Positions 9,596 through 60,285 of a DNA stretch of 64,000 nucleotides are shown here, one piece after another. The notes beneath the pieces are model-generated. The model searched no databases. It had not been told where the DNA came from and was given only the letters and a program-made list of their open reading frames with translations. Positions within the stretch are counted from its first letter, which is position 1. Each line of letters opens with the position of its first letter. Origin of the DNA: Strigamia acuminata (lineage: Eukaryota > Arthropoda > Chilopoda > Geophilomorpha > Linotaeniidae); assembly GCA_949358305.1 (NCBI GenBank), contig OX442316.1, positions 6,138,001 through 6,202,000 of the forward strand, in the 5' to 3' direction. The position numbers and the translations under genes were made by a program.

Positions 9596-12039
9596 TATAT
9601 CGAAATTTTTTAACATGGTGTTCTATGGCCACCCAACCAAACCAGTCATTTTTTAGGTATTCGCTATATTAGTTTTTGTTTTCACAAATTGTCTACGTAC
9701 AAATTGTCTAGTTCCCGAATATACGCTAGACCAGAATGTGTTGAGTGCTAGAGTGTTTGTATCACTTTTTGCTTTTGGAAATGAATAGAGTGTTGAAGTC
9801 GGGCCCAATCAAGCTGAAATAGTGTTTTATTCAAAATAAAATACATGCTAGGGATTATCATCCTATTGGGCATTGGATGCTGCACGGAGTGCACGCATCC
9901 TGATCTGTGCACCATTATTTCGACTGGTGGCACGTGAACAAGTTTATTGGCGCCAACACTCGCTGTTTTCACTTTCCTATTGTTTGTAGCGCCGCCATAA
10001 TGTTGTGGCACGACCTTTGTGATTTGCATAGAGTAAATTAATCGTATTCAAATTTGCTAAATATTCTCTTATTCTCCATCATTATTTATGTTGTTATGTT
10101 GAAATTTTAATAGCAGTATTTTTATTTTTAGAATGTTGATGTGCTTGCCATTTTGAGATAACTTGTGAGCCTGAAATAATCGATCGTTTATGGTAGGTAA
10201 CCGTGACTGATGTCATTAACAAATAAGCATTTTGTATGCATAGAATTACAGCATTACAACAATATAGTAAATAAAATGATTGCATAAACATAAGTTATAT
10301 GTTATAATTGTAGGTTCACACGGGTTGGATGTGGATTGACCCTATCTGAAGCACCAATCAGATTTGAGAGAACTAACCAAGATGGTGGCCAAGAATCAAA
10401 TGGCGTTCTATCAATAACTTAAAGGCACACCGACTCAATCAAACCCCTTGATTCGGTGCAGTGCAAGATGTTCAGTAGGTAGGTTATATCATAGACTTAA
10501 TTTTTTGTATTAAATTGCTGATATGACCATGTAATAAGACTAATAAGTCTACTAGCATATCTAACAAAAGACAAAACGCACATGCCTAGTGCAAGTCCAA
10601 AACTGTTGCCGATATCGGAAAGTAAGGCAGTGAATGTGTAGTTCCTGACTTCATGTATATGTTCCACTATATTAGTACTCATACTAAGTTGAATAAGAAA
10701 AGGTTGATTATTGTCTTGAACTTGTGTGTAGGAATTTAACGTATATGCAGTTTCCTCGCACAGGCGAATACATGGACATGATTTAGTTAAGTTAGTTGAA
10801 ATTTTTATGAACGTCTGAAGACTTGTTTTAGCCATTGCTTTTGATTCACACGGTAAAAGATTGTTAACCGTATTTTTTAGAAAAGGTAATCTAGAAAAAA
10901 TATACTGGTATGTATTTAATTACGTAGATTTTGATTTTGGTCTTGTGCTTTTCTTACTCGCATAAATTGGCATTTTGAATTTGCTCAAGAAGACAAGTTG
11001 TTCGACGTTTTCTACAATCTGATTTTTCAATACAGGGATTTGTCGAACTCATCAGTCGATGAAACTGAACAAAATAAGAAAAATTGTTCTAATGTGAATT
11101 TTATTAGGCGCATTATAAGTTGTGGTTTTGACGGTTTTTACCATTTCTATAAATGGAATGGACACAAAAACCGTCAAAACCATCAGCAAAAATCGCAAAC
11201 CCAAAATCACGACTGGAGTGGTTTATGAATCGGTTTATGCTGGGTTTTGGAACGCACCTCAACTGTTGCGGACGAAATAATAATAACCAGCCACCAAGTT
11301 TTCTAATTTCCCTTATTTCCCTTAAAAAGGCTATTATTTGAAGGTAATCATATTTTCTGAATGATAAAATATAAAATAATAATTTCTACGATGGGAGAAT
11401 TAATAAGTTGGAAAGAATGGATATCATGTCCGAGTGATCAATTACTTAGGGTCAACCGGAATAACTTATTCTAGGTGTGTTTGAAAAAGTGAGGGAAGTT
11501 TCTTACAAAACACATCCGAATATCAATCATTGTTGATGCATGCACTGGGAGGTGGGTGGTCGATGACAAATCAAACGCTTCAAAATGAGTAGAATCAGGA
11601 TCGCTAACAAATCCCTAAATCAATTTGGAAATTAAAATCCGTAAAATCTTTGATTTCAGTATTTGTAATTGTAATAAACGATTTCTTTTTCATACTTGGT
11701 AGAATGCATGTGGACATCTGTAGATTGGTAATTCCTCATACACAAAAATGGGAATCACAAACGATGAAAATAAGCCAGAATATTCCGCTTCAGCTGAAAC
11801 GAAATCTAGTTTAAGTATGTTTATCATTTATTTCAGTTGTTTTAGTTTTAAAAAGGAGAAGAAAAAAAGATTCCTTATGTGTAAACATTACATTCGCTCC
11901 GATTTAAGCCAAAATATTCAGCTCCATGAGCCCCCTTGTCAAAGACAACTGACCGGCCTTTGACCACGTCATTAATTTTCGATATTCTTATCCAACGAAA
12001 ATACCGTGTGCGGCTTTGCTGTCGAGCTTTCGTCGTTGC

Positions 12040-13354
12040 TCATTTGGCACGTGCACCCAAGCCACATCCAAAAACACGGAGAAATATCACGGTCGGATTT
12101 TGTCCATTCCATAACTCTTCCGGGACCAAGTTCCAGTTTGTTTTTGTCATCACACGGTTTTTCACAAAAACCACTGTTGCTAATGCTTCTGCCCAGAAGC
12201 GCAATGGCATTTTTAAGTCCAGTAGTAGCGTTCTGGTCGCTTCAATAAGAGTGCGGTTTGAGCGCTCAGCAATTCTGTTGCCTGATGGGCTGAACGGGAC
12301 AGTCATTTTATGCTTGATCCCGTGTTCCTCGCAAAATTCACGAAAATCGTTGCTGATGAATTTTCTGCCATTATCCGTTCGTAATCTGCACAACGCGTTT
12401 GCTCTCTGTTTTTCCGTCAGCGCTTTGAAGACGTTGAAAAAACCAAGACTTTGCGATTTATCTCTTAAAAAATACGCAAACTTTTTCCTCGTGAAATTGT
12501 TCGTCAAGACCATCGCGTACTTGGAGCCTGATAGAGATGGTGTTTGCAAGGGTCCTACCAAATCTTTATGAACAAGTTCCAGCGCTCTTTGAGATTGCAT
12601 GCCGGCGATGCGTTTGAACGGGGTTTTTGACATTTTTCCACAAACGCATGATGCGCATTTAGGCAGGCGCTTGTCCTTAAGCTCTAACCCATGCACCACT
12701 TCTTCGTTGCGCATTTCGTCGAGTGTTTTCTGGTTGACGTGGCACAATTGCTCGTGTCACAATGCCTTTTCGGTCATGTTTGCGGCTTCAGTCGCTGCTA
12801 CCGCACGCTCCTCTTGGCACGTTTTCAAAACGAACATGTTGCCATGTTTTATTCCTCGTACAACAACATCGACAATATCGGCCACCTCGTCATCAAAAAT
12901 TATTTTATATTTCTTTGCCGTCATCCTTGGAATCGACATTAAGTTCCCCTTTAGATCGGGAACATATAAGATATTAAATAAAGTGACCTTTGTCGGCGCC
13001 GAGCTCGAGAAGCAACAATTAATGATGATCTCGCCTCTTCCTTTCGCCCGCAATTTTGAGTCCTTTTTTTGCGGTGGTGTTAACCGTTTCGATTTCTTCC
13101 AGCGTTGTGAACCACTCGCGATGACACGATGTGTGCGCAGATGCACCCAAATGCAAGATCCAATCGGATTTGGTCAAACCGTCATCGTCTAGGTCGACAA
13201 CAAACGCGTGGTGTGGCAGTCCCGTATGCACCAAGTTGAGCGTCGCTCGCTTTGATGTGGCGACATATGCGCTGCGGAGCTGCGCCTTGTGCAAATTTTG
13301 CCGCTTCTTTCGGCTGTTACTTCGCAAATAAGCTTTTCCGGGGATCGAATCCAA
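12040..13354 (-). mobile_element. Ty1/Copia retrotransposon pol fragment, broken
   Basis: Three overlapping frames read in order: a protease-like stretch (SDWILHLGASAHTS, with the catalytic Asp of the usual DSGASxH replaced), the copia linker (LFNILYVPDLKGNLMSIPRM), GAG-pre-integrase (CASCVCGKMSKTPFKR) and an integrase core with LRTDNGRKF and RIAERSNRTL carrying the second Asp and the Glu of the DDE triad. Frames change at about 13.1 and 12.75 kb. No reverse transcriptase, RNase H or LTRs are seen. It lies in the large intron between exons 6 and 7 of DEG/ENaC copy A and is absent from the same intron of copy C. Confidence 0.85.
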
Positions 13355-14276
13355 CAGTTCCTGGCTATATGGCTATATGGCGATCGACTCCAATTCTCGT
13401 CGATTCACGTCTGGTTGGCGAGACTTTGCCACATAGGAACAGGCCGCCATTTTTGGATTCTGGAAATAGTTCTAGAACTAGATCCGATTCCAGGTTTCAT
13501 TGAAACTATCCGAGCATCAATTGTTTCAGCTCTGTTCACAAGTGCCTTACAGTGTGAACAGACTCTGCATTGCGTTTGACTAATTTTTCCTTGCGTTGCG
13601 TTGCGTCGCCGCTTGTGTGAACACAAGTGTGAACCCACCTTAAGGGGCTGTCTGGATGGGGGGAGGGAATTTAGCATGGCTGGGTATAGGCGGGACCAAT
13701 TTAGGAGCGCCAAACCTGTCCGGGCCGAAGAGCTGGTCCGGGCTACAGAGCGTATACTGTATATTATTTGTGCATTAAATGATGCATTCCACAAAACGTA
13801 TTATCATTCGATGCAAAAATTCATTACAAAATTCATTGCAAAATAATTTCAGTGTATTTTTGAACCATATGAATAGAGATCAAATAACCACAATAATTTC
13901 TTAGGTTAAGAAGTTTTGTTACTCACTGAATTTAAAGTGATAGCAATTTCCAAACGGTGTAGCTACAACAGTTTCATTTGCTCTTCCGAACTTTAAGTGA
14001 AGTAATCCCTGAAAATAGAATTTTCACTGAATTTACTCCTACCACAGTGCGATCGTACATACCTCTAAATGCCTTAACCCATTCACCATCAATTGCAATT
14101 TCGTTAATTTCCATAGATTTTGCAACGTGTACTTTGGTTTTGTCAAATATAAATCTAATAATTGCACATCGCACCAACTGCGATAATTTAAAGTCGAGCG
14201 ATTTCGATTGAAGTAAGTTTTCTTATGATATGACGGTTTTCGATCATCTCCACATAAAGTAAAGGATGGAAATTTT

Positions 14277-15470
14277 GGGCCGCTATTCCACGCGCGACAC
14301 CCGTTATTCGTTGGAGCGACATCGCTACAACGAATACCGTGTGTATGATTTGGCGCGACACACGTATTGGTTGGCGCGACGTGGTTTATTTTCTAGATTT
14401 TTTACCTGTGTAAAATTTTGCAAAGTTTTCTAAAATTTTGTTAGATTTTGTAAAATTTTGCTAGATTTGAGAAGTAAAGTGGTATGGTACGAAAAGTACT
14501 GTGTATCTGTACCAGTACCGCTGCAGAAATCCACACAATCTGAAATTCTGGTTTGACTACAGTTTAGCAATCAAACTTGGCAAATTGGGACAAACATTTA
14601 TTTAAAATGCAAATTTCTCGAGAATGAAAGCTCGGATCGTTAAAAACTAAACACCAAACGAAAGAGCGAAAAAAACTGCACCAGTGACATTGATGAAACA
14701 ATACTACCCGCCACTAACGATTAATATATATATTTAATTGAACAATACAAACATATTTTTAGACCCCCGTGGTAACCCTCGTCGCATTGTCGGGCCGCTT
14801 TTATGTGGGCCACCCGGTATATTTGTTTGCCATGCCGCTGCCAATGTTGAAAGCGCGGCATGAATTTCCGTGAATTTGCGTGTGAGCGAAGCAGGAAAGC
14901 TTCAAAATCTATCGCACAAGCGAGGAACGGAATCATCGTGTTTTTGGTGCAGCAAACGGATACGTTTCGACAGCATCATGCACGCGATTTCCGGCGACTC
15001 CGAAGAACACGTAAAAATTGTTTAAATTTTATTTAAACTTTTATTTAAACTTGTTTAAAATGTGAAATTTTGATGAAAAACACAGATTTCAAAATGTTGA
15101 TGAAACCTGAATGAAGTACACAAAATGTTGATGAAACTTGAATGAAATACACAAAATGTTGATGAAACTTGAGGTCGTTACCGTCGAGCCGACACGGTTT
15201 GAGTCAGAGAAATTGACGTCGTTATTACGACGTGTCGCGCCAACTCATGTCGCGCCAATCCACTTTTGTTGCTACCACGCATATGAGCAAGAGCGACATG
15301 TCGCGCCAATTCATCTTAGGGCACAAGGTTTGCAAAATGACGCTCTTGTTGATACCACGCATATGAACAAGAGCGACGTCGCGCCTCTGCATTTTTGCCG
15401 TCAGCAGCAAGATGGGTTGGCGCGAAATCGTATGTCGCGCCAACCCATGTCGCGCGTGGTACGTAACACC
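14277..15470. mobile_element. Non-autonomous DNA transposon with 8-bp target duplication, inside copy A exon 5
   Basis: The 1194-bp insert is flanked by GAAATTTT at 14269-14276 and 15471-15478, while copy C has a single related site. Its ends share an imperfect 23-bp inverted repeat containing CCACGCGCGACA. Variants of the word TTGGCGCGACA recur in both subterminal regions (14290-14390 and 15228-15460), like transposase-binding subterminal repeats. An 8-bp duplication fits hAT-type and some other DNA transposons; the superfamily is not certain. No transposase frame is visible. Confidence 0.72.
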
Positions 15471-17976
15471 GAAATTTTACATAACCTAGGTATTCCACTT
15501 CTACCACATTTCGAGTAGAAAGTTTGTAGTAATACGATGCACGTTCTTGAATCATAATTGTAGCAGTTGTAAGACATGCGAGCAACGTTACAAACCACAA
15601 CCAGTTGCGGCCATCATTTTTCTTTGCTATTTCTAATCGTTTGTTCTCGTTTACGCACTTGGTGTATTTCTTAAACACGATTGCTTCCATCTGAGAAAAT
15701 GACTTGATGTTTTGTCTTTTATGTATCCACAATACAACATGTTGTAGGATATTGATAATTGACACCAATGATAAACCCATAAATAAACCCAAACTGCCAC
15801 TAATATCGGTCAGTAAATTGTTTTCATCGTAGGCCAAGCGCTCGGTTAATGATACTTCCGATTGCCCAAGCGAAAAGAACATAACTAAATCGTTTGGAGA
15901 AATTTCATGCGTGTGCATCAATGACGTGGACGCAAGTCGATTACACGTTCTGGTGCATTTACACTTGGTCTGAACTTTAGGTATTAGAATTGTAGTGTAA
16001 GCGTTGAAGAAACTGGTTGCAGCAATTGTTTTATTTCTCGATTGGCAAGGTGGAAGGTCGATACTCGAATCGAAAAATGGCAATCTATTTGTACGTAGTT
16101 TATTGAGTTTCTTAAAGCAATATTAATTTATGTTTGAGTTTTCTTACCTGCATTTTGATTGCTCATCAATTCTTCTGTTTACGCAATTTTTGTAACATCT
16201 CAAGAATTCTGCATCGCTGACGCAAGGGGTTTTCCGAGTATTGCCAAAATTATACTAGATTTTAAGGGAGACAAACATATAGCGTAGGGAGATAAACATA
16301 TAACATCGATGAATGAATAAGAACGGTAGTAATAATTTACTTTTCGAAAGAAGGTTTTTACGTTCAATGCGTAACGGCTTGGATAAAAATTGATCCATGA
16401 AAAGTCAATTTGATCGTTTGACGCTCCTTGTAAGAAAATTTGCAAACACTTAGATTAGCTAATAATACTACGGTAATTGTAAAAGAAAATTATTACAATT
16501 ATATATGTTGCATTGCATAATTTCTGCTTTCGAATGCTGACTTTTATGGTGAATTGTAATTTGTTTTCTCGCAACGTATCTATTGAATTAAATTGTACAT
16601 CAAACGCTATTGAAAAAATCGTGACTTTTTAATACTCAACCATTCATGTAAATTTTGGAACATTGTCCGAACATTTCTTTAGACAGTGATATCTGTAATT
16701 CATCCAGGGAATAATTCTATTAATAAAATACTAGTTTAGTAATCTTGATGCGATAATGCGAAAGCAAAAAAAATTCCACCTCGTACTCTTACATTTAGTA
16801 CTTCTACTTTGTCTAGGACGATTGATTCGTTTCTAAAATGCCACAATTTAGAATAGTCCACGTTATCCTCCTTCCATACTTTTACAAACGGAATGGCACA
16901 GGTGAGGAAGTCGGCTCCTAATTTTTCTTTCATTAATTCGATCATATAGTCACTTTGAAACGAGCACAACACTATGGGTTGAAACTCTAGTGATCGCAAT
17001 TTGCCAAAGTAAATGTCAACTGCCAGTGGTTCGTCCAAAAAATAATTGATTCGGTCCGTTATTTGACACAAACTTATTATTAGACAGCACAACACTACGC
17101 AAGCCCATAACACGCGGAAAATAATGGAACGAGATGAATCGATCAAATCTGCATATTCGTCTGGCATTTGGTGATTGGAATAACGTGAAAAATATTTGAC
17201 AGTTTTATAAATTGTGCGGCGATGTTTTTTATGAATCCAAACAAATGGCATTTTGTGAGTGTGGTTAAATGTGATATAATGTGGTTGGTTTATCAGTTTG
17301 GAAAATAATATAAACCTCTACCTCGTCAATGTTGAATGGCCATAGGTGAAGCGGTGAAGCGAGATGGTTTGCTCGTTGCAAATGATCAACACTATTGGTA
17401 ATTTTGTTTGAAAGGTTGTTAAATTGTGAATTTTCTTTTAGTGTTGTTATTATCCGTAATTGCTTTCTACATGTGTGCAAAGATAATTTTTTTTATGTTC
17501 TCTTGCTCTTTTATTATCTTATCGTGTGTTAGTGCAACTTTATGTGACACGAACATGTTAAGTAAGTAATCGCTATTTAAAATTATCAACTTTATGGTTT
17601 ATGTTGAATATGTGATAAATTGGGATTTTGCTAGTATAGTGAAGCAAAATCTAGATTATACTAAGGAAAATAAATGTGCTAATTTAGGAATTGTCTAATT
17701 TCTCCATTTTAACACAGAACTTTAAAGAAAAATCCACCGCCAGGTTACACTCTTACTCTGGGCTATGGACAGTACGAATCTTCAGTCTAATTACGAAGGC
17801 AAATAAAACAAGGCATGTCAAGCAGAAAATTGTTTATTCGACCAAAACATACAGGGAGAATAAAACAAAACGACAAAGATGATCTCGGCGGCGTCAATTT
17901 TCTGCAAGGGAGGGAAGAAACAATTAGTGCTAAATAAACAACATTGTATCCAGAAAAACTTGGGAGGGACCATTAG

Positions 17977-18075
17977 CACATTTATTTTCCTTAGTATAAT
18001 CTAGATTTTGCTTCACTATACTAGCAAAATCCCAATTATACAACAGTGAAAATAAATGTGCTAATTTAGGAATGT
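17977..18075. repeat. DIRS internal complementary region
   Basis: Bases 17977-18040 are the reverse complement of the left terminus (about 17618-17680). Bases 18041-18075 are the reverse complement of the right outer end (about 20240-20270). The segment lies between the recombinase frame and the left (3') terminus, where DIRS elements keep the template used to complete their circular intermediate. Confidence 0.8.
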
Positions 18076-19190
18076 TCGTAGCCCCTTAACACAACAGAAG
18101 CAAACTCTTCCGATGCGGATTCGATCAGTCTGTTGTAGAATTTCTTGAAAACAGAGGCCGTCGACCAATCGGCGGCTTTGATAATGCACTCTAAAGACAC
18201 TCCTCTGCTAGCCGCGAAAGAAGTGGCTGCAGCCCTGGTCGAGTGGGCCGAGAAGATGGAGGTATCCACCCCCGCGTCGGAGAGGACGTCCTTAATCCAT
18301 CTCGCGATGGTTGTAGAGGAAACCGGGGAAACGGTGGAGAGCCGGAAAGGAACAGTTGCTTTGAACCACCCCTAAAAGGTGCGGAGAAGGCAAGGTAATG
18401 GCGCAAGGCAGTCACCGGACACAGGTCTTTGTCGTGGAAGGCCGCGATGCGAAAGGGTGCCAGAGACGCGGACTTACGAGACCCGCACAGGGGAACCACG
18501 CAAAAGGTGTCGAAAAACGAGATGTCTGCTGAGAGAAGACGAAGGTCGGCCGCTCTGCCCGCTAAGGCAAGAGCTAAAAGAGTGGCCAGTCGCTGATTTC
18601 TCGACAGCCCCGAAGGGTTAGGGACGGAAAAAAGGTGTTTGAGGTGTACCAAAACCGGGCCCACGTGCCAAATGTTAGAGTATTTCGGGACAGCAGGTCT
18701 AGAGAGGGATACGCCTCTCAGAATCCGGCGAATGACCGGATGGGAGCCAAAATCCTCCCCCCCCCCGACAGGGAGACTAATTGGGAAATTGCCGACCTGT
18801 GACAATTGACCGAGCTGTAAGACCTGCCCTCACTGAAGAGCGAGCCCAAGAAGTTGGCTACGTCCATGGTAGCTGGTCGAATAGGGTCCACGCCGCGAGA
18901 TTGCGCCCAAGTCCTCCAGTTGCCCCAGCAATTGGAGTAAGTCCTACAGGTGGAGCGTTTCCACGAGGCTCCCACCAATTGGGCAGCGTCTTCTGAAAGT
19001 CCGATCTCTCGCATTCTACCGAGGACAGTTTCCAGGCCGCCAGGCGGAGGGATCCGTCCAGGATGAGCGGGTGACAGTTCCCTTCCAGATCTTTCAGAAG
19101 GTCGTCGAACAGGGGAAGCAGGAGAGGTGGGGCCACCAATAGGGGCCAAATCGTCTGAAAAGATAAAAGAGGTAAGACGAGGCAAAAACA
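18066..19190 (-). pseudogene. DIRS tyrosine recombinase, frameshifted
   Basis: The N-terminal part has a core-binding fold (SWKRSTCRTYSNCWGNWRTW, then VANFLGSLFSEGRSYSSVN). A middle part carries LATLLALALAGRAADLRLL with the first catalytic Arg region. The C-terminal part, in another frame, has HSTRAAATSFAASRG (the HxxR box) and a Tyr in FKKFYNRL. At least two frame changes break it. These enzymes integrate DIRS circles instead of a DDE integrase. Confidence 0.8.
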
Positions 19191-20213
19191 AACAAAAGGG
19201 AAACGTACCGGAAACCAGCTCTGGCTGGGCCAAACCGGTGCCACTAGCAACAATCTAGTTGGAGACGGAGCAGATCTGACCCTGCTGATGCACGGGGAAA
19301 TCAGGCAAAACGGGGGAAAAGCGTAATTCAGCGCAGGGCCCCAATCCTGGACCATGGCGTCGAAGGCAATGGCCTCCGGGTCCGGACGCCAACTGAAGAA
19401 CTCCTTCAGCTTGCGATTGCGGTAAGAGGCGAACAAGTCGCGAGAGAAGGGTCCAAGGGTCTGCTCCAGACAGTCGAAGACTGACCCATCCAAAGACCAA
19501 TCCCCGCTATCAACGATCCCGCCCCTGGATGCAAAGTCCGCCGCAATATTGAACTTTCCCGGGATGTGCTCGGCCTGAATAGAGAGGTTCCTAGACATGG
19601 CCCAAGACCAGATGTCTTGAGCCACCGCCGTAAGGTCCGGAGACCGAGGACTCCCGAGGTGGTTAATCGCAGTGACCGCTGAAGTGTTGTCCAAGCGGAT
19701 CTTAACAATCCCGTCTTTAAGGTCTGCGGCGAGGGCTTTGATGGCCCAGAAAGCAGCCAAGAGCTCTAACACATTAATGTGTTTGCCTAGTAAAAAGGAG
19801 GGCCACTTGCCTCCCACCGAAACCGAGTCACAACTTGCCCCCCAACCGGAGTCAATACTGACCAGTACCACCTTGGGTAAGAGGGATCTGCCTTGGCAAG
19901 AGTCCAGATTAGACACCCACCAGGATAGCTCGTTTCTGGACTCCGTGTCCAGAATGCAGACCGAGTCAAAAGAACCCGAACGTAAGAGGCCCGTTTTCAG
20001 CACCTGCAGACCCCTATAATGTAGTGGGGCGGAGGAAATGGCTAGAGAAGTTGCATTAAGCTTACCTACCACCGAAGCCAAAAACCGGATGTCGACCACC
20101 CCCGAGCCTGAAAGCAAAGTCCTAACGGAGCTCTTAATGTCCGAAATTCTGTTCGGCGGAAGGCTAACTCTCATAGCCTCAGTGTCGATAAGAAAACCGA
20201 GGAAGGTTCTGTG
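19190..20213 (-). pseudogene. DIRS reverse transcriptase end and RNase H
   Basis: The frame opens with RTFLGFLIDTEAMRVSLPP (RT thumb side of the palm), then the DIRS connection region, RNase H with SIDSGWGASC, KHINVLELLAAFWAI, IRLDNTSAVTAIN and AEHIPGKFNIAADFASR, and the DIRS tail DLFASYRNRKLKEFFSW. Open across RT end and RNase H, but truncated at its start by fusion with the right terminus. Confidence 0.8.
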
Positions 20214-20752
20214 TTAAAATGGAGAAATTAGACAATTCCTAAATTAGCACATTTATTTTCACTGTTGTATAATTACAAGTGCATTGGTCTTGGTTGTCAC
20301 AGCAACCCAGTTGTCATAGTTTTTAAGTTTTTGTCGTTACATTTCTGTACGCCTTGCAAGTTGTTGTTGTTGTCGTTCACGTTAACGAAAACGTTCTCTT
20401 TAATTCCTCTCACAGTTTACTGGTAAATTAAAAAATATATAAACCGGTTTACATCCTCTCATCACACCGTTGCCGTCAATCGGTCTTCACAAGACCGAGT
20501 CGAACTCATCGCGTGCACGGTGTGTTCCGCACTCAGACCTGCATCTCCGTAACACACAGTCGGCCAACACTTCACCATGCAGGACGGTTTTATTTCTTTT
20601 GCCACACACAGCAGTATAGCCACACACGGTGCTAATGACACCATCAGCGATGGTAATCGAGTCTACAAACACACATGGTTACTGAATACGTTCACACCAC
20701 ACATGACCACAACACTATGCATGCAGATACACGTCGCACACGCTGATGAGTC

Positions 20753-21423
20753 ATGTTGAATTATCGTGCGACGCCGCTTGATGATTTGCCTGCGCCTAGC
20801 GTTTTACTCATAAGTCAAAGATTAAGAATATTCTTGCCGGGACCAGACAAAAATTATGGCTACGTTGGGGTAAGAGATGTGACTGATAAATTAAAGAAAC
20901 GACAACAGAAACAGAAGATGGCAAATGACAAACATGCAGCTTGATTACCACCATTTATAATGGGATAGCGAATCTTAATGCAAAAGAAAAATAAGACTTG
21001 GGTGCCTGGGAATGTTGTAAAACTAGCTGAACAACCACGATCACACTGGGTTGAAGTATTCCGACGCAATCAACGACATTTGCGACCAGCGCGTAGATCA
21101 CTGAATTTTGATAGTAGGAAGGCTGAACCAATATAGGAGCCAGTGGAAAAAATTCACGAGTCGATTGAAGAAGTAGAAAAGGGATATCATTGCCTGATGA
21201 GCAAATTAAACTGCCAAAGGAAAATCAGGAGTTTGGGCAAGTGGCGGTAACAGTATTAAAGGAAACAACTCATTCCAGTGTAGAACCAGAACAAGTTGAA
21301 GGAACAGATGTTGAACTACAACCGATTAAAACAAGATACGGACGAAAATGTGTTAAACCAATTAGATTTTGTTACATTGAATGTATTGAATTTGTAGAAA
21401 CTTTTATTTGTATAATTTTAATT
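20753..21423 (+). mobile_element. Gypsy-type (Mag-like) retrotransposon, C-terminal pol remnant
   Basis: LNYRATPLDDLPAPSVLL begins a typical integrase C-terminal region. Across stops and a frame change it continues with LKKRQQKQK, KNKTWVPGNVV, VFRRNQRHLRP and TRYGRKCVKPIRF, the usual end of Gypsy/Mag-lineage polyproteins. Protease, RT and the integrase core are absent, so only the 3' end remains. It runs toward the LTR-like segment at 21501. Confidence 0.75.
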
Positions 21424-21500
21424 TAAAAAGAAACATGTTATGTACGGAGTATTAATTATTATTATGAATTACCAATAGGTTATTCTGTTAACTAGGTCAT

Positions 21501-21779
21501 TGTTGTGTATGCGGGTGCACCATATTGTGGAGTTTTCGGGTTTTGACGGGCGATAACGATCGCCAGGGGGCGGGCGGGCATACAAGAATATGTCCGATAG
21601 ACGTTTTGGGGGTAACTAGCCAATTGGGGGCTGTTCTTTGGGGTCAGCCAATCAGAGCTGGCCAATGCGATACATAAAGAGGAATTGTTTTGTAATAAAA
21701 TCACTTGAAGTTAACTAGAGCTTGTAGTCGTGTCTTGGTAATTTCGGGTCAGCTAGTCTCAGCTTTGGGATAGTTTACA
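21501..21779 (+). repeat. Probable 3' LTR of the Gypsy remnant
   Basis: The segment starts TGTTGTG and ends TTTACA (TG...CA rule). It contains a TATA-like ACATAAAG near 21671 and AATAAA near 21697, and lies just downstream of the Gypsy pol end. It is GC-richer than its surroundings. There is no second LTR in the window to prove the borders. Confidence 0.45.
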
Positions 21780-22192
21780 ATATGTATTTTGTAATTGATA
21801 ACAATAGCTTGCTGTAAAACAAACAACGATCTTGCACTGAAGTTGCTAGGAGTTTTTACTGCCTAGCAACTTTCCAAAACATGAATAAACAGTTTGTAAT
21901 GCAAATTTGAGCGTGTCAACGACGTTTATTTCGACCAACAGTTTAGCCCTAAATAAGCCCTAGTTCAGCTGCAATATGAAGAAGACCAAGCAACAGCCTT
22001 TCTGATGAGTAGTACTTGATAGAATACTACATTTGATAGAATACTACAGTCATGTGACCTAATTAATAGAACTTTTGAAAATTACATAAATAGCCTCGCA
22101 CCAGTTTTAATACACACTGACCACATACTGTATTAGTAGTCTGTGTCTACAAACAACAGTTATCTAGATAGGTCATATTGTAAACTTATTTT

Positions 22193-23800
22193 TTATTTAT
22201 TAAATTGCTGATATGACCATGTAATAAGTCTACTAGCATATCTAACAAAAGACAAAACACACATGCCTAGTGCAAGCCCAAAACTGTTGCCGATATCGGA
22301 AAGTAAGGCAGTGAATGTGTAATTCCTGACTTCATATATATGTTCCGCTATATTAGTAGTCATAGCAATATCGGTCAGTAAATTGTTTCCATCGTAGGCC
22401 AAGTACTCGGTTAATGATACTTCCAATTGCCCGAGCGAATAGAACATAACTAAATCGGTTGGAGCAATTTTATACGTGTGCAACAATGTCGTGTACGTAA
22501 GTCGATTACAAGTTCTTGTGCATTTGCACTTGGTTTGAACTTTAGGTATTAGAATTGTAGACAATGCTTTAAAGTAACTGGTTTCAGCCATTGTTTTATT
22601 GCTCGATTGGCAAGGTGGAAGGTCGATACTCGAATCGAAAAATGGCAACCTATTTGCATGTGGTTTATTGAATTTCTCATTAATTTTTATATTAATTTAT
22701 GTTTGAGTTTTCTTACCTGCATTTTGATTGCTCATCAATTCTTCTGTTTACGCAATTTTTGTAACACCTCATAAATTCTGCATCGTTGACGCAAGGAGTT
22801 TTCCGAGTATTGCCAAAATTATACTACATTTTAAGGAAGACAAACATATAGCGTAGTTATATAACATCGATAAATGAACAAAAACGGTAGTAATAATTTA
22901 CTTTTCTAAAGACGATTTTCACGTCCACTGCGAAACCGCTTGTAAAAAAATTAATCCATGCAAAGTCAATTTGATCGTTTACCGCTCCCTGTAAGAAAAT
23001 TGCAAACACTTAGCTAATAATGCTAATTGTAAAAGAAATTTATTACAATTAACATTGTTGCATTGTTGCATAATTTTTGATTTCGAATGCTGACTTTTAT
23101 GTTGAATTGTAATTTGTTTCCTCGCAACGTATCTATTGAATTAAGTTGTACATCAAAAGCTATTGAAAATAAAGTGACTTTTTAATACTCAACCATTCAC
23201 GTAAATTTTGGAACATTGTCCGATCATTTCTGTAGACAGTGATATTTTTAATTCATCCAGGGAAACATTCTATTAATAAAATACTAGTTTAGTAATCTTG
23301 ATGCGAGAATTCGAAAGCTAAAAAATTCCACCTCTTACGCTTACATTTAGTACTTCTACTTTGTCTAGGACGATTGATTCGTTGCTAAAGTGCCACAATT
23401 TAGAGTAGTCCACGTTATTCTTCTCCCATACTTTTAGAAACGGAGCTGCACAGGCGAGGATGTCAGATTTTTCTTCTTTCAATAATTCAATCATATATTC
23501 ACTTTGAAACGAGCACATTACTATGGGTGGAGACTTTAGTGGTTGCAATTTGCCTAAGTAAATATCAACTGCCAGTGGTTCGTCCAAATAATAATTGATT
23601 CGGTCCGTTGTTTGATACGAAGTTATTATTAGACAGCACAACACAATGCAAGCCCATAACACGCGGAAATAATTGGAACGAGATGAATCAATCAAATCTG
23701 CGTATTCATCTGGCATTTGGTGATTGGAATAACGTGAAAAACATTTGACAGTTTTATAAATTGTGCGGCGAAGTTTTTTATGAATCCAAACAAATGGCAT
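22193..23800 (-). CDS. DEG/ENaC copy B: intact two-helix chimera
   Basis: Exons 23345-23800, 23201-23269, 22902-22988, 22717-22823 and 22193-22649 join in frame to 391 aa with no stop. The N-terminus is cytosolic (MPFVWIHKKLRRTIYKTVK), with SNHQMP where the family usually has the HG gating motif. TM1 (RVLWACIVLCCLI), PPIVMCSF, a Cys-rich exon with C-Y-x-x-C, LPFFDSS and CKCTRTC follow. The last exon then jumps from NLLTDIA of unit 1 to MTTNIAEHIYEVRNYTF and TM2 (LLSDIGNSFGLALGM) of unit 2. Compared with copies A and C, unit 1 TM2, the linker and unit 2 TM1 and ectodomain are deleted. The result has normal two-helix DEG/ENaC topology with a short ectodomain (usual proteins are 500-700 aa). Splice donor of exon 2 (GTGAAT) is weak. 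It may be functional or recent debris. Confidence 0.75.
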
Positions 23801-24647
23801 TTTGTGAGTGTGGTTAAATGTGATAAAATGTGGTTGATTTATCAGTTTGGAAAAAAATATAAACCTCTATCTCGTCAATGTTGAATGGCCGTAGGTGAAG
23901 CGGTGAAGCGAAATGGTTTGCTCGTTTCAAATGATCTCCACTATTGGAACTTTTGTTTGAAAGCTTGTGGTAATTTTCTTTTAGTGTTATTAATTTCCGT
24001 AATTGCTTTTGCATATTTTTATTCTGTATTTTTATTACTATTTTACTGCTACTGCGTGATGGAGTTTGTTTAATTTATGCAAATGACTTTCTATTGCACG
24101 CAAATAAATGTTTGTACAAAATGACATTAGTAAAGTACAGATCCTGAATTGCTACATTGGTGATATTAAAAGTCAAGTGCACTGAGTGGAATTGTTACAT
24201 TTTCTAAAAGCCCGTATTAAAAAACCAATAATCATCGAGAAAAAAAATTAAATTGTTTTAGTAATTATTTCATAATAACAATCTAAAAACGTAGTTAACA
24301 AAAAGCAATGCATGATGGTCGAGGTAAATAAAACAAGTGATCTTTGTTGGGATCGCCACACAGTGGGTGGTCAGTACAAATGACATCATGCTGGGGATGA
24401 CAAAGTGTAACTCAACATATAGCTTTCTACTTAATGCTAGGGATTATCATCCTATTGGGTGAAGGATGCTGCACGCATCATGATGTGAGCACCATTATTT
24501 CGACTGGTGGCGCGTGAACAAAGTTTTTCGCTCATTGGCTCCAACACACGCTGTTTTCACTTTGTAGCGCCGCCATACTGTTGTGGCATCACCTTTACAT
24601 AAAGTCAATTAGTCATATTCAATTTTTTTTAAATATTCTCTTGATAT

Positions 24648-25622
24648 TGTTACATGTATTTTGGGGTTTTAAACGGTTTAACACGCAACGTATGTTATGC
24701 CTAGTGATAGGAGTATGAGTGAGTGTTTTTGCATAAAATGGAGTCAGAGTTTTATTTCAGTTTCAAATGGGTTTTATTAACCGGACAAACAAAGTGTTTG
24801 TTCGATTCCTTTATCAGTTTACATTTAATTTAAACAATACAAATGGTCTATTCATTGTCACATTATCATTAATCGAGTTTGAATAAATTGGCATTCACAT
24901 TTTCAATTATTACAAATAAATCTCAACACTTACCATGTTTACATGTACTCACTTATCCAGATAAGTGAAAATGCGAATATTACTTTTGTGGAAAACTGCA
25001 TGCGTTTACAAAGAATCAGTTTTCTAACAAAGGTGACGTCATAAGACGTTTTTAACTCTGTTAAACTTGCGCATTAGTCTTCCACAATGCACTGCGCAGA
25101 AACAACATGTCACAGCATTGTTGTGACGTCAGCTTTTCTAGATAAGTAATGAGTGGGTGTTTACATTGCAAATGGCAATGCGCAAAACACCCAAAATCTA
25201 CCTCAAACAAGTGGATTTTAGTTTTCCAGATAAGTTTGACTTTTCTGGAAAACTGATTTGTTTACATGATCAGTTTTCCAGAAAAGTAAATTTCGCATTT
25301 TCACTTATCTGGATAAGTGAGTACATGTAAACATGGTAAATGTCTAACACCTTTCAAATCAACAATCAAATCAAACAAAAATAGAATCGTCAGCCGTACT
25401 CGAGCGACATCAGAGAAGAGAGAGCTCTGTCGAAAAGCGGGCGGTTTTATAGCAAATCTGCCATAACCCCCATTCTCAAATTAATCGGTCCAGTGACATG
25501 GCGGTGACGAATAACGTTCGTCAGCGCCATTTATGGCCGAAATTTAGCAACGTTTAATGATAATAATGCCTAATCGAGCGCTACGGATCGGCCGTCGATC
25601 GGGACGATCCGTGCGCGTGACA
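24648..25622. mobile_element. Solo LTR, 4-bp target duplication, with nested MITE
   Basis: The segment begins TGTTACATG and ends GCGTGACA, flanked by ATAT at 24644-24647 and 25623-25626. At the same place copy A lacks this DNA. Without the nested MITE it is about 570 bp. No internal retrotransposon sequence remains, so it looks like the product of LTR-LTR recombination, Gypsy-like by duplication size. Confidence 0.62.
24933..25336. mobile_element. MITE with about 45-bp terminal inverted repeats, TA target
   Basis: CCATGTTTACATGTACTCAC opens the left arm at 24933 and is repeated inverted at the right end (25336), with flanking TA on both sides. Arms contain the inner palindrome CACTTATCCAGATAAGTG, and further TTTTCCAGA/TCTGGAAAA inverted words lie inside. 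No coding frame. Nested in the solo LTR. Confidence 0.8.
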
Positions 25623-28600
25623 ATATGTTGAAATTTTAATAGCAGTATTTCTATTTTTAGAATGTTGATGTCCGTGCCATTTTCAGATAACATGTGAGCC
25701 TGAAATAATGGATCGTTCATGGTAGGTGAGTGACTGATATCATTAACAAAGAAGCATTTTGTATGGATAGAATTACAGCGTACAACAATATAGTAAATAA
25801 AATGATTGCACAAACATAGGTTATATGTTCTAATAATTGTAGGTTCACACAGGATGGATATGGATTGACCAATCCGATGCACCAATCAGATGTGAGAGAA
25901 CTAATCAAGATGGTGACCAAGAATCAAATGGTGTTCTATCAATTACTTAAAGGCACACCAACTCAGTCAAATCCCTTGATTCGGTGCAGTGCACGATATT
26001 AAGTAGGTAAGTTATACCGTAGACTTAATTTTTTTTATTAAAGTGCTTATAGGACCATGCAATAAGCCTACTAGCACATCTAACAAAAGACAAAACGCAC
26101 ATGCCTAGTGCAAGCCCAAAACTGTTGCCGATATCAGAAAGTAAGGCACCGTATGTGTAATTCCTGACTTCATATATATGTTCTGCTATATTAGCAGTCA
26201 TAGCAAGTTGAATACCAAAAGGTAGATTATTGTCTTGATCCATTGTGTAGGAATTTAGCATATAAGTCGTTTCCTCGCACAGGCGAATACATGGACATGA
26301 TTTAGTTAAATTCGCTGAAATTTTTATGAACGTCTGAAGACTTGTTTTAGCCATTGCTTTTGAGTCACACGGTAAAAGATCGTTAATCGTATTGTTTAAA
26401 AAAGGTAATCTAGAAAAAATGTTTTTAATTACATAAATTTTGATTTTGGTCTGGTGCTTTTCTTACTCGCATAAATTGGCATTTCGAATCTGCTCAAGAA
26501 GACAAGTTGTTCGATGTTTTCTACAATCTGATTTTTCAATACAGGGATTTGTCGAAATCAACAGTCGATGAAACTGAACAAAATAAAAAAAATCGTTCTT
26601 ATATTAATTTTTATTAGGCGCATTCAAAGTTTCGGTTTTGACGGTTTCTATAAATGGAATGGACACGAAAACAGTCAAAACTATCACCAAAAATCGCAAA
26701 ACCGAAAATTACGACTCTGGAGTGGTTTATGAATCGGTTTATGCTGGGTTATGGTTTCAAAATGGCCGCCTCGAAAGTTAGAGCGACGAATCAGATTTCC
26801 AAGTGTCGTAAACACTTTCAGGAGAACCGTCTACCTCTCAACATGTGAGTAAATGCAAAATTATTCTTAAATAAGGGATCCACACTTCCGATTGGTTGGT
26901 TAAATGAAAGAAAAGGCCTTTTTATACACAATGTACTCGCACGATCGTGATGCAAAAATGATACAACAAACGGGCCTAAAAACGTACACATTCACGGTCA
27001 AGCACATTTTTGTGTTCTATTTTGGCCGTTTTTATAAATGGCATGAACGGTATAAACCGAAACTCAATAGGTGGAGTCACCTTCCTTACTTTTGATTACT
27101 TAAAGAAGGTAATTATATTTTTTAAATGATAAAATAATAATAATTTCTATGATGGGAGAATTAATAACTTAAGTGTGAAAGAATGGATATCACGTCCGTG
27201 TGATCAATTAATTAAGGTCCACCGGAGTAACTTATTCTGGGTGAGTTTGAAAAGGTGAGTGAAGTTTCTTACAAAATACATCCGAATATCAATCGATGTT
27301 GTTGCATGCACTGGTACGTGGGTGGTCGACAACAAATCGAACGCTTCAAAATGAGTAGAATCAGGATCGCTAACAAATCCCTAAACCAATTTGGAAATTA
27401 AAATTCGTAAAACTGTTGATTTCAGTATTTGTAATTGTAAAAGACGATTTCTTTTTCATACTTGGAAGATTGCATTTGGACATCTGTAGATTGGTAATTC
27501 CTCATTCGCAAAAATGGGAATGAGAAACGATGAAAATATGCCAGCATATTCCGCTTCAGCTGAAACGAAATCTACTTTAGTTATGTTAGTTATGTTAGGC
27601 TCATGACAAACTCTTAACCAAATTTGCTTTTGGAATCGATTTTCGTCCTTTGTACCCAATATGGATTGAAAAAATATTTTACAATATTGCATTGTCCGGG
27701 CTACAGAGCGTACACTGCATTAAATATTGCATTCTACAAAACGTATTATCATTCGATGCAAAACTGTATTACAATATGCATTGTAAAATAATTTCAATGT
27801 AGTTTTTGAACCATATGAATAGATATTAAATGACCTCAATAATTTCTTAGGTTACGAAGTTTTGTTACTCACGGAATTTATAGTGTTTGCAATTTCCAAA
27901 CGGTGTTGCTATAACTGTTTCATTTGCTATTGTTGCGAGCGTTAAGTGAAGTAATGTCTGAAAATAGAATTTTTACTGAATTTACTCCAACCTTAGTGAG
28001 ATCGTACATACTGTACCTCTAAATACTTCATCGCATTTCCCATCGTTTGCAATTTCGTTAAATCCCATAGGTTTTGCAACGTGTACTTTGGTGTTGTCAA
28101 ATATAAATCTAATAATTGCACATCGCACCAACTGCTATAATTTAAAGTTGAGCCACTTTGATTGAAGAATTTTTCCTTATGAAATGACGGTTTTCGATCA
28201 TCTCCACACAAAGTAAGGGATGGAAATGTTACTTTACTTAGGGATTCCACTTCTACCACATTTCGAGTAGTAAGCTTGAAGTAATACGATGCACGTTCTT
28301 GAATCATAAATGTATACATATAGCAGTTGCAAGACATGCGAGCAACGTTACAAACCACAACCAGCTGCGGCCATCATTTTTCTTTGCTCTCGTTTATGCA
28401 CTTGGTGTAATTTTTAAACACGACTGCTTCCATTTGAGAAAATGACTTAATGTTTTCTTTTTTATGTATCCACAATATGACCTGTTGTAGGATGTTGATA
28501 ATTGACACCAATGATAAACCCATAAATAAACTCAAACTGCCACCAATATCGGTCAGTAGATTGTTTTCATCGTAGGCCAAGCGCTCGGTTAATGATACTT

Positions 28601-28840
28601 CCAATTGCCCGAGCGAATAGGACATAACTACATCGCCTGGACCAATTTTATACGTTTTTATCAATGACGTGTACGTAAGTCGATTACACGTTCTGGTGCA
28701 TTTACAGTTGGTTTCAACTTTAGGTATTAGAAGTGTAAACAAAGCTTTAAAGAAACTGGTTTCAGCGATTGTTTTATTTCTCGATTGGCAAGGTGGAAGG
28801 TCGATACTCGAATCGAAAAATGGCAATCTATTTGAATGTA

Positions 28841-30158
28841 CAACCCAGTTGCAAAAATATACAATCACTCCACCTTTTCAAATAAAGTGCTTTTTCTTTC
28901 AATCACTGTGTAGTTATGAAATAGAAAAATTATCTGAAACCAACTAAACTAGGTTAATTAAACTCTCCTCTTTCAGTGGAAAAAAAGTTTTTAACAATAT
29001 TCAAAACACATCAAAAGTTATCTTTATTTTTGTAACTGTACCACATTTCAAAATAATCCAATCAGCTCATTCGAGTTTCAAAAATATACAATCAGTACTG
29101 TGTATTTCCTCCTTTAGCTTTACAAACAGCTTTCATACGGTCAGGCATGGATAATACAAGTTTAGAACATTGCACAGGTGTAATCTTGTTCCATTCGTCT
29201 TGTAAAACACTACACAACTCAGCTTTGGTTGTTGCTTTACGCAGTCAAAACCACTTCAAAACCACTTGGAAGACCAAAAATTACTAGTAAAAGGGATGAT
29301 AAAGCATTAAATCGAGTGCTAAAAGGAAAGAGACATGCCACTACACCTTAAATTACCGTTGAATGGGAAAAAATTATCGGCAAAAGGTTTCTGATACCAC
29401 AACACGACGACGACTCAGAGGCCTGGATTATGGTTTTTACCATGCAAAAGAAATACCTCTCCTTACAAAGTTGCACATTATTAAGCGAAGAAAATGGGTT
29501 AATGAGCACAAGGATTGGACAATAGATGAATGGAACAACATCATTTGGAGTGATGAATCCAGATTTTGTGTTAGGCATCTGAGTCGTCGTCGTGTTATGG
29601 TATCAGAAACCTTTTTGCCGATAATTTTTTCCCATTCAACGGTAATTTAAGGTGTAGTGGCATGTCTCTCTCCTTTTAGCACTCGATTTAATGCTTTATC
29701 ATCCCTTTTACTAGTAATTTTTGGTCTTCCAAGTGGTTTTGAAGTGGTTTTGATTGCGTAAAGCAACAACCAAAGCTGAGTTGTGTAGTGTTTTACAAGA
29801 CGAATGGAACAAGATTACACCTGTACAATGTTCTAAACTTGTATTATCCATGCCTGACCGTATGAAAGCTGTTTGTAAAGCTAAAGGAGGAAATACACAG
29901 TACTGATTGTATATTTTTGAAACTCGAATGAGCTGATTGGATTATTTTGAAATGTAGTACAGTTACAAAAATAAAGATAACTTTTGATGTGTTTTGAATA
30001 TTGTTAAAAACTTTTTTTCCACTGAAAGAGGAGAGTTTAATTAACCTAGTTTAGTTGGTTTCAGATAATTTTTCTATTTCATAACTACACAGTGATTGAA
30101 AGAAAAAGCACTTTATTTGAAAAGATGGAGTGATTGTATATTTTTGCAACTGGGTTGT
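28841..30158. mobile_element. Tc1-like element with about 585-bp inverted repeats (fold-back form)
   Basis: The element starts CAACCCAGTTGCAAAAATAT and ends with its complement, flanked by TA (28839-28840 and 30159-30160). The two arms, about 28841-29425 and 29570-30158, are nearly identical inverted copies and include the 5' half of a Tc1 transposase gene in each arm. Only about 145 bp between them are unique and code for part of the catalytic core (KRRKWVNEHKDWTIDEWN, IIWSDESRF). Inserted in the exon 4-5 intron of DEG/ENaC copy C; copies A and B lack it. Confidence 0.9.
29240..29580 (+). pseudogene. Tc1-type transposase remnant
   Basis: Pieces in different frames read GRPKITSKRDDKAL (second helix-turn-helix region), TTRRRLRGLDYGFYHAKEIP, LLTKLHIIKRRKWVNEHKDW and IIWSDESRF, which carries the second Asp region of the DDE/D domain. 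The frame is broken, and the C-terminal third is replaced by the inverted arm. Not a functional enzyme. Confidence 0.85.
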
Positions 30159-31954
30159 AGTTGATTGAGTTTCTTACGGTATTATTAATTTATGTTGGAT
30201 TTTTCTTACCTGCATTTTCAGTCTTCATTAATTCTCTGGTTTATGCAGTTTTTGTAACACCTCTTGAATTCTGCATCGCTGACGCAAGGGGTTTTCCGAG
30301 TATTGCCAAAATTATACTACATTTTAGGAAGACAAACATATAGCGTAGTTATACTGTATAACATCGATGAATGAACAAGAACGGTAGTAATAGTTTACTT
30401 TTCTAAAGAAGATTTCTCCGTCAAATGCGTAACCGCTTGGAACAAGAGTAATCCATGCAAAGTCAATTTGTTCGTTTATCGATCCCTGTAAGAAAATTTG
30501 CAAACATTTAGCTAATAATGCTAATTGTAAAAGAAAATTATTACAATTAACATTGTTGCATTGCATAATTTCGGTTTTCGAATGCTGACTTTTAGGTTGG
30601 ATTGTAATTTGTTTCCTCGCAACGTATCTATTGAATTAAGTTGTACATCAAACGCTATTGAAAATAACGTGACTTTTTAATACTCAACCATTCACGTAAA
30701 TTGTGGAACATTGTCCCAACATTTCTGTAGACAGTGATATTCGTAATTCATCCAGGGAAACATTCTGTTAATAAAATACTAGTTTAGTAATCTTGATGCG
30801 AGAATGCGAAAGCAAAAAAATTCCATCTCGTATGCTTACATTTAGTACTTCTACTTTGTCTAGGACGATTGATTCGTTGCTAAAATGCCACAATTTAGAG
30901 TAGTCGACGTTATTCTTCTCCCAAACTTTTAGAAATGGAGCCATACAGGTGAGGAAGTCTGCTTTTGCTTCTTCTTTCATTAAGTCGATTATATATTCAC
31001 TTTGAAACGAGCACATTACTATGGGTGGAAACTTTAGTGGCTGCAATTTGCCGACGTAAATGTCAACTGCAAGTGGTTCGTCCGAATAATAATTGATTCG
31101 GTCCGTTATTTGATACGAATTTATTATTAGACAGCACAATACTACGCACGCCCATAACACGCGGAAATGAATGGAACGAGATGAATCAATCAAATCTGCG
31201 TATTCATCTGGCATTTGGTGATTGGAATAACGTGAAAAACATTTGACAGTTTTATAAATTGTGCGGCAAAGTTTTTTGTGAATCAAAACCAATGGCATTT
31301 TGTGAGAGTGGTTAAAAGTGATAAAATGTGGTTGATTTAACAGTTTGGAAAATTTAAACCTCTACCTCGTCAAAGATGAATGGCGACTGGACGGTGGAGC
31401 GAAATGGTTTGCTTGTTTCAAATGATCTGCACTGATGGTAATTTTGTTTGAAAGGTTGTTAAATTGTTAATTTTCTTTTCGTGTAATTATTTGCCGTAAT
31501 TGCTTTCTACACGTGTGCAAAAAAAAAATTTTATGTTCTCTTGCTGTGTTATTAGTTAATTTATTGAGTTTTCGTGCAACTTTATGTGACACGAACACGT
31601 TAAGTAATAAAAGATAAGTAATAAAATTATCAATTTTGTCGTTTAGTGGTAAATTTAAAAAAATAAAACTCGGTTTGCTGGTAATTTTTCAAATAAAGTT
31701 CAAAATGTTTTGGGATTATTTCTACACATGCTTCAGCTGCATTAGCAAATCTATAAGGTCTCTTGTAGATGGGCACAGTAGACAGGATCTTATTACGCGT
31801 TTTGTGTAATAATGTTTTACAAATTTTTTGTTGGTACTTTTATTACTATTTTACTGCTATTACTTGATGGAGTTTAATTAATTGTTTTTCGATGAATGAC
31901 ATTTCTTTGCACGCAAATACTGTGTGTGTTTGTGCAAAATGAGAATGCTCTACA

Positions 31955-59583: not shown

Positions 59584-60285
59584 TACCATACATAAGGCAC
59601 CATCCTGTTGCTAGTCACTGTTTCATATTTTGGGAATTCTGCTATTAGGTTCCGTCCTGTTCCTAGTCAACTTTCTGTCCATTGGAACGTTCTGATTAGG
59701 TTCCGTCCTGTTGCTAGTCAACTTTCTGTCCATTGGAACGTTCTGATTAGGTTCCGTCCTGTTGCTAGTCAACTTTCTGCCCATTGGAACGTTCTGATTA
59801 GGTTCCGTCCTGTTGCTAGTCAACTTTCTGTGCATTGGAACGTTCTCATTAAGTTCCGTCCTATTGCTAGTCAATATAATTTCCATTGGTACTCTACTAT
59901 TAGGTATCGTCCTGTCGCTAGTTGTACATGATGGTGTAAAGAACAATAACTAGCGACAGGACGATACCTAATAGCAGAGTTTCAATGCACAGAAAGTTGA
60001 CTAGCAACAGGACGGAACCTAATGAAAACGTTCCAATGCACAGAAAGTTGACTAGCAACAGGACGGAACCTAATAAGAACGTTCCAATGCACAGAAAGTT
60101 GACTAGCAACAGGACGGAACCTAATGAGAAAGTTCTAATGGACGTTATATTGACTAGCGACAGGACAGTACCTAATGGTAGAGTTCCCATGCACAGCATA
60201 TTGACTAGCGACAGGACAGTACCTAATGGTAGAGTTCCCACGCACAGCATATTGACTAGCAAAAGGACGATACCTCTTCATGGTA
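59584..60285. mobile_element. Foldback-like palindrome of 51-bp tandem repeats
   Basis: The left arm has about six copies of a 51-bp unit (TTCCGTCCTGTTGCTAGTCA at 59650, 59701, 59752, 59803, 59854). The right arm (59945-60280) has about six inverted copies. A 20-30 bp spacer separates them, and outer ends share TACCAT. Long inverted repeats made of short tandem units are the hallmark of Foldback-type transposons. Because 51 is divisible by three, open frames run through both arms on both strands, but these are repeat artefacts. Confidence 0.75.

Follow-up and report, generated by a model that had tools for sequence, protein, structure and literature searches.

To our knowledge, channels of the DEG/ENaC family are made of chains with two membrane helices each, and these chains form trimers in the solved structures. 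Here we describe a DEG/ENaC locus from the centipede Strigamia acuminata (GenBank assembly GCA_949358305.1, contig OX442316.1, forward-strand positions 6,138,001 to 6,202,000) in which two channel units are joined within one gene. We analyzed one window, that is, this whole stretch of 64,000 nt, which contains three copies of the gene (A, B, and C), and we used the DNA sequence only; positions are counted from the start of the window. Among proteins with solved structures, the closest in sequence to copy B is BRTNaC1, the broad-range thermal receptor of myriapods (PDB 8ymr, 8ymw, and 8ymx; E = 1.2e-15). The chain of BRTNaC1 has 431 residues, like copy B, and one two-helix unit; copy B has about 25 extra residues before the second transmembrane helix (TM2), which form a gap in the alignment to BRTNaC1. 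The closest solved match to the second unit of copy A (unit 2) is PDPNaC1, a proton-gated channel from the centipede Scolopendra (PDB 9jf7; E = 2e-11). Both have the thumb cysteines and a TM2 that starts with DIG.S.GL...G. In the sections of PMC12714832 that we drew on, PDPNaC1 is described as a homotrimer of two-helix, single-unit chains of 421 residues, encoded by nine exons and unfused.

Chains with two or three DEG/ENaC subunits joined by a cytosolic linker have been engineered from acid-sensing ion channels (ASICs), and the portions of the two reports that we used describe currents from them (PMC4529235, PMC10329638). In the first, a chain of two ASIC1a subunits gave typical ASIC1 currents in oocytes, so a two-unit chain appears to be physically possible. 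The same portion argues for tetramers and mentions smaller bands, which may be breakdown products (PMC4529235). In the second, three ASIC subunits joined in one chain also form channels (PMC10329638). Unlike copies A and C, these concatemers are man-made from one gene family and, as far as those portions describe them, have short designed linkers (PMC4529235, PMC10329638). We found no natural tandem, fused, or two-ASC DEG/ENaC in the titles and abstract openings of the open-licence papers listed by our searches, which is a weak test. Predicted proteins with a pair of ASC domains are present in databases, and some of them may be artefacts of prediction. In the part of an article on Drosophila DEG/ENaC channels that was covered (PMC3583452), wording about tandems, fusions, or operons matched solely in the title of one reference.

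The window contains three DEG/ENaC copies in tandem, all on the minus strand, which we modelled from their splice borders (Table 1). Copies A and C have a first unit (unit 1) followed by unit 2, and copy B has one unit. Unit 1 takes up five exons and part of a sixth; the sixth exon continues into unit 2, encoding its beginning and first helix (TM1), and five further exons complete unit 2. There is no intact two-unit gene among the three copies. We believe that the locus probably represents a fused tandem subunit that is likely to have been translated at one time, and that is now decaying and reverting to a single unit. A preliminary description of this sequence had proposed a gene for one polypeptide with two channel units. 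That arrangement is real in the DNA, but it was overstated, as both double copies are damaged and copy B has a single unit. As modelled, intron 2 of unit 1 is 34 bp long in all three copies (16607-16640, 23160-23193, and 30655-30688). A second in-frame acceptor lies 27 bp downstream (found by eye) and would give an intron of 61 bp; the choice alters each unit 1 by nine residues and does not otherwise affect the argument.

The fusion is best seen in copy A. As had been described, a single open frame runs through the LPFF region, the CKCTRTC motif, and TM2 of unit 1, then through about 40 residues, and into TM1 of unit 2; these residues are mostly hydrophilic. This frame (16122-15316, minus strand) has 268 codons and includes the stretch from LPFFDSS to TM1 of unit 2. 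Both of the remaining frames contain stops in the linker. The linker has 41 residues between the hydrophobic windows of the two helices, and placing it on the cytosolic side, as was proposed, agrees with the usual topology of the family. By hydropathy, the conceptual two-unit protein from copy A (825 positions, with 8 X at an insert that we describe below) has four hydrophobic segments, at positions 43, 380, 440, and 783, and copy B has two; each unit has two membrane helices around one large outer domain. The five further exons of unit 2 are present in both copies A and C, with GT donors and AG acceptors, and the expected FPSxTLC motif is FPSFTLC in copy A and FPSLTLC in copy C.

Both units belong to the family by sequence. 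A search with the Pfam ASC profile (PF00858; cut-off 23.6 bits) had been suggested, and each unit of copy A, scored separately, exceeded the cut-off: unit 1 at 41.0 bits (in two stretches) and unit 2 at 49.8 bits. Copy B scored 73.7 bits. The thumb and palm of the outer domain have a matching run of eight cysteines in the two units (255, 264, 268, 279, 293, 321, 323, and 327 in unit 1; 663, 669, 676, 687, 702, 726, 728, and 732 in unit 2). DEG/ENaC channels usually have a G-A/S-S tract in TM2 and a His-Gly before TM1, but these pore motifs are not criteria for membership as far as we know. At these sites (by eye, from the translation), GLS and N-H-Q are found in unit 1. In unit 2 the tract reads GMC and the linker contains no His-Gly, so unit 2 deviates from the usual pore-lining motifs. 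We also ran AlphaFold on the contiguous TM2-linker-TM1 piece of copy A (204 residues, with no relatives); the mean predicted local distance difference test score (pLDDT) was 38.0, and we did not use this model as evidence.

The structure of the genes suggests how the fusion arose. In copies A and C, five introns interrupt unit 1 and another five interrupt unit 2, with identical phases (0,1,0,0,2). The best interpretation of the shared exon is therefore that the last exon of a six-exon gene was fused to the first exon of its neighbour. The matching phases, together with the apparent in-frame deletion in copy B (see below), argue against a chance neighbourhood of the two units. Across 163 residues of their last part, units 1 and 2 are 28% identical (E = 3e-11), so the duplication that gave rise to the units is old relative to the copying of the locus. 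Similarity between copies A and C extends beyond the double gene at both ends (10095-11250 with 25624-26754, and 16095-17601 with 30157-31645), so the module that was copied is the double gene. The anatomy is directly visible, and the following order of events is what we propose. A six-exon DEG/ENaC gene would have been duplicated head to tail, and loss of the stretch between the two genes would have joined the final exon of the upstream gene to the initial exon of the downstream gene. The predicted product is a single chain with two channel units, four helices, and a cytosolic linker. The double gene, with flanks on both sides, was then presumably copied in tandem, and three copies are visible. 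The lack of stops in unit 2 (see below) suggests that translation of the double gene went on for a while after the copies had separated. Later, both double copies became damaged, and copy B would have returned to a two-helix subunit through one in-frame deletion.

Copy B follows unit 1 as far as LLTDI and then continues in frame with AMTTNI..., which is the end of unit 2 with its TM2. It has neither TM2 of unit 1 nor the linker, and TM1 of unit 2 and most of the second ectodomain are missing as well. About three bases (TTG) at the join are common to both sides (by eye). Judged from this junction, copy B is a two-helix gene that was formed by an in-frame deletion, which fused the final helix of unit 2 onto unit 1. 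We found no lesions in copy B, and it is the only copy of the three without any.

Copy A is interrupted. The preliminary description took 14063-16084 to be one uninterrupted exon, which is refuted by an insert of 1,194 bp. The insert divides TM1 of unit 2 from the FPSFTLC motif, and the frame of unit 1 ends within it at 15316. It is bordered by an 8-bp direct repeat, AAAATTTC, and has imperfect inverted ends; it resembles a transposable element. Outside of the insert, copy A has no in-frame stops. One of the introns in unit 2 of copy A contains pieces of a Copia-like retroelement (12043-13173; rve integrase core, E = 3e-13, and Pol_BBD, E = 3e-9).

The claim that no stop separates the units fails in copy C, where a TGA (28376-28374) is in frame with unit 1. 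Copy C is 17 bp shorter than copy A in the linker and 8 bp longer after TM1, and these changes put the TGA in frame and TM1 of unit 2 out of frame. Copy C has a second in-frame TGA in exon 5 (30220-30218). A stop between the units had been named in advance as a result that would tell against the fusion; copy C has one, yet it resembles a lesion of copy C itself. An inverted repeat with two arms of 587 bp at 98.6% identity lies within intron 5 of this copy (28839-30159). This repeat is a recent element, and a reading frame inside it (29363-29602) matches the helix-turn-helix domain of Tc1/Tc3-type transposases (E = 3e-8).

The coordinates of the three copies are given in Table 1.

Table 1. Features of the DEG/ENaC locus, with positions in the window
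Feature	Position	Strand	Basis
Copy A, two-unit DEG/ENaC gene, damaged	10497..17251	-	gene model and lesions
Copy A unit 1, exons 1-5	17251-16793, 16716-16641, 16606-16497, 16427-16341, 16254-16148	-	gene model
Copy A fused exon before the insert: LPFF region, CKCTRTC, unit 1 TM2, linker, unit 2 TM1	15471..16084	-	open frame 16122-15316
Copy A linker, 41 residues	15607..15729	-	hydropathy and mapping
Copy A insert, 1,194 bp	14277..15470	-	8-bp repeat AAAATTTC on each side, imperfect inverted ends
Copy A, remainder of unit 2	10497..14276	-	end of fused exon (14276-14063) and five exons
Copy A unit 2, exons after the fused exon	14008-13927, 11793-11696, 11614-11507, 11064-10958, 10890-10497	-	gene model
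Copy B, six exons, single two-helix unit	22193..23800	-	join at 22367/22366
Copy C, two-unit DEG/ENaC gene, damaged	26025..31298	-	gene model
Copy C fused exon, with the end of unit 1, the damaged linker, and the beginning of unit 2	28017..28827	-	gene model
Copy C in-frame TGA, exon 5	30218..30220	-	in-frame stop
Copy C in-frame TGA between units	28374..28376	-	17-bp linker shortfall relative to copy A

The evidence that the double genes were once translated comes from missing stops. From TLCGDD to the end of unit 2 (326 codons), neither copy A nor copy C has an in-frame stop. If the 103 differences between these copies are placed at random, 4.5 stops are expected on average, and the probability of none is 0.010. 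Unit 1 has one stop (in copy C) where about six are expected (6.2; or 5.7, with a probability of one or none of 0.02). We take the absence of stops in unit 2 to mean that translation of the double genes continued for a time after their split, and that they were later free to decay. Outside of the fused exon unit 2 has no separate start, and inside it there is a Met at 15690. As this Met is the only start of its own that unit 2 might have, translation of unit 2 most simply implies the double chain. Gaps in the coding sequence outside of the damaged linker preserve the frame, and intron gaps of 1, 2, 4, and 5 bp are common. (We tried to use the introns as a neutral yardstick, but dropped this as two aligners disagreed: the first gave 90.7-96.6% identity for each of eight introns between copies A and C, and the second gave a pooled divergence of 13.5% across 871 sites. 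The disagreement is due to large gaps within long introns.)

Several observations weigh against our reading. Both double copies bear lesions; in copy C a stop lies between the units, and in copy A the acceptor of intron 3 is CAA instead of the CAG of copies B and C. Between copies A and C, the ratio of nonsynonymous to synonymous substitution rates (dN/dS) is 0.80 in unit 2 (347 codons), which is near neutral. The value for unit 1 is 0.88 (373 codons), and that for TM2 plus the first part of the linker is 0.40 (52 codons, with few changes). The near-neutral ratios in copies A and C argue against a constraint of long duration. The stop test for unit 2 is a single comparison, and the corresponding test on single branches is weak (the probability of no stop is 0.06 for A, 0.20 for B, and 0.10 for C). 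As to function, copy B retains both of the stretches that precede TM2, in series, and these account for its extra residues relative to BRTNaC1, so the protein may not fold and work normally. Finally, none of the 3803 candidates from a protein search with the two-unit form (with its 8 X; E ≤ 0.01) was a relative with the fusion; that database gave no DEG/ENaC of any kind, so we take it to be poor in spliced animal genes and conclude nothing from it.

Some of these observations would also be explained if the fusion was never useful, that is, if a deletion joined two neighbouring genes not long before copying of the locus and the double copies were dead from then on. Both double copies are broken, and the single-unit copy B is the only one without a lesion. 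We computed dN/dS in unit 1 for each branch from parsimony counts (373 aligned codons, of which 363 were scored, with 2000 bootstraps). The ratio was 1.07 for copy A (bootstrap 95%: 0.60-2.38), 0.75 for copy C (0.42-1.57), and 0.38 for copy B (0.20-0.78); A exceeded B in 98.7% of the bootstraps and C exceeded B in 91.9%. The branch ratios are also in line with our own reading. These ratios for A and C, and the ratio of 0.80 in unit 2, are what genes that died early might show. However, genes that were dead from the start should have accumulated more stops in both units than we see, and the coding gaps outside of the damaged linker would not be expected to preserve the frame. So we consider an early death of the fusion to be unlikely.

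Another explanation is that units 1 and 2 are two abutting or overlapping single-unit genes, with a unit 2 transcript that starts near the Met at 15690 and a unit 1 that ends in the linker through splicing or cleavage, so that the double chain was never made. In both A and C, this Met (SQ-MEA) lies about 28 residues ahead of TM1 of unit 2. To score potential splice sites, we derived a matrix from the known borders in these genes (25 donors and 24 acceptors). Genuine donors had a lowest score of 1.5 and a median of 6.7, and genuine acceptors had a lowest score of 2.2 and a median of 9.45. In copy A, an acceptor-like TTTTCTCAG precedes the Met and, with a score of 2.9, is above the weakest genuine acceptor, but this site is missing from copy C. 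Within the linker, donors reach at most 3.6 in A, and acceptors reach at most 3.95 in A with none above the cut in C; these scores are far below the medians, although they overlap those of the weakest genuine sites. Stronger sites lie just beyond TM1 of unit 2, namely a donor scoring 5.0 in both double copies, and a donor of 5.6 and an acceptor of 4.9 in C. The linker contains no AATAAA or ATTAAA in either A or C (each fused exon has one AATAAA, upstream, within the coding part of unit 1), and unit 1 of copy A has no stop of its own. Given these sequences, we do not favour separate production of the two units, which seems quite unlikely.

It is highly improbable, and on the sequence not favoured, that copy A is still a working two-unit gene from which the insert is removed as a new intron: the rest of copy A has no in-frame stop and the insert has splice-like ends (a donor at 15480 with a score of 6.3 and an acceptor at 14324 with a score of 6.8), but this best pair is out of frame (phase 0 into phase 2), a pair that keeps the frame needs a donor at 15469 that is below the scoring cut, the AGs listed near the altered intron-3 acceptor either shift the frame (two) or run into a stop (one; frames by eye), and dN/dS on the branch to copy A is about 1. 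The suggestion that this window encodes a working tandem channel is unsupported, and copies A and C are both interrupted. Our preferred reading remains a fused subunit that was probably translated for a time and is now in decay.

The window also contains elements outside of these genes. Between copies A and B, at 18066-20213, there is a GC-rich element with long open reading frames on the minus strand, which we take to be a DIRS-like retroelement; its frame of 451 residues matches the Pfam families Dam and PCIF1_WW, all below threshold. A reading frame for linker histone H1 lies at 114-596 on the minus strand (PF00538, E = 3e-19). Exon-sized frames at 35057-35476, 38825-39211, and 53798-54301 carry domains of three types: Sushi repeat, F5/8-type C-like, and ADAMTS cysteine-rich. 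At 59600-60275 there is a repeat array with a spacing of about 51 bp, which matches itself in the opposite orientation as well.

How might a two-unit DEG/ENaC chain have functioned? In K2P potassium channels and in two-pore channels, internal duplication of a subunit gene reduces the number of chains per channel. These tandems derive from fourfold channels, and two is a divisor of four. The parent of copies A and C is threefold instead. By analogy with the engineered ASIC chains, a two-unit chain could function if it lent a unit to a neighbouring pore or took up a single-unit partner such as copy B. A working chain would most likely have supplied two of the three subunits of a pore along with a single-unit partner, or else left a spare unit outside of the pore. 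It is possible, but we think rather doubtful, that an undamaged copy elsewhere in the genome or in relatives still makes the two-unit chain, and that this chain pairs with a copy-B-type chain in a fixed 2:1 ratio, with the partner having been regained by deletion.

Because both double copies are damaged, these results carry limited weight. Copy B illustrates a route for reversal, as a single in-frame deletion turns the tandem into one chimeric subunit. If our reading is correct, then this locus would be a natural tandem in the DEG/ENaC family, with an even-numbered fusion in an odd-numbered channel, and it would become testable whether nature sets the order and stoichiometry of DEG/ENaC subunits by covalent linkage.

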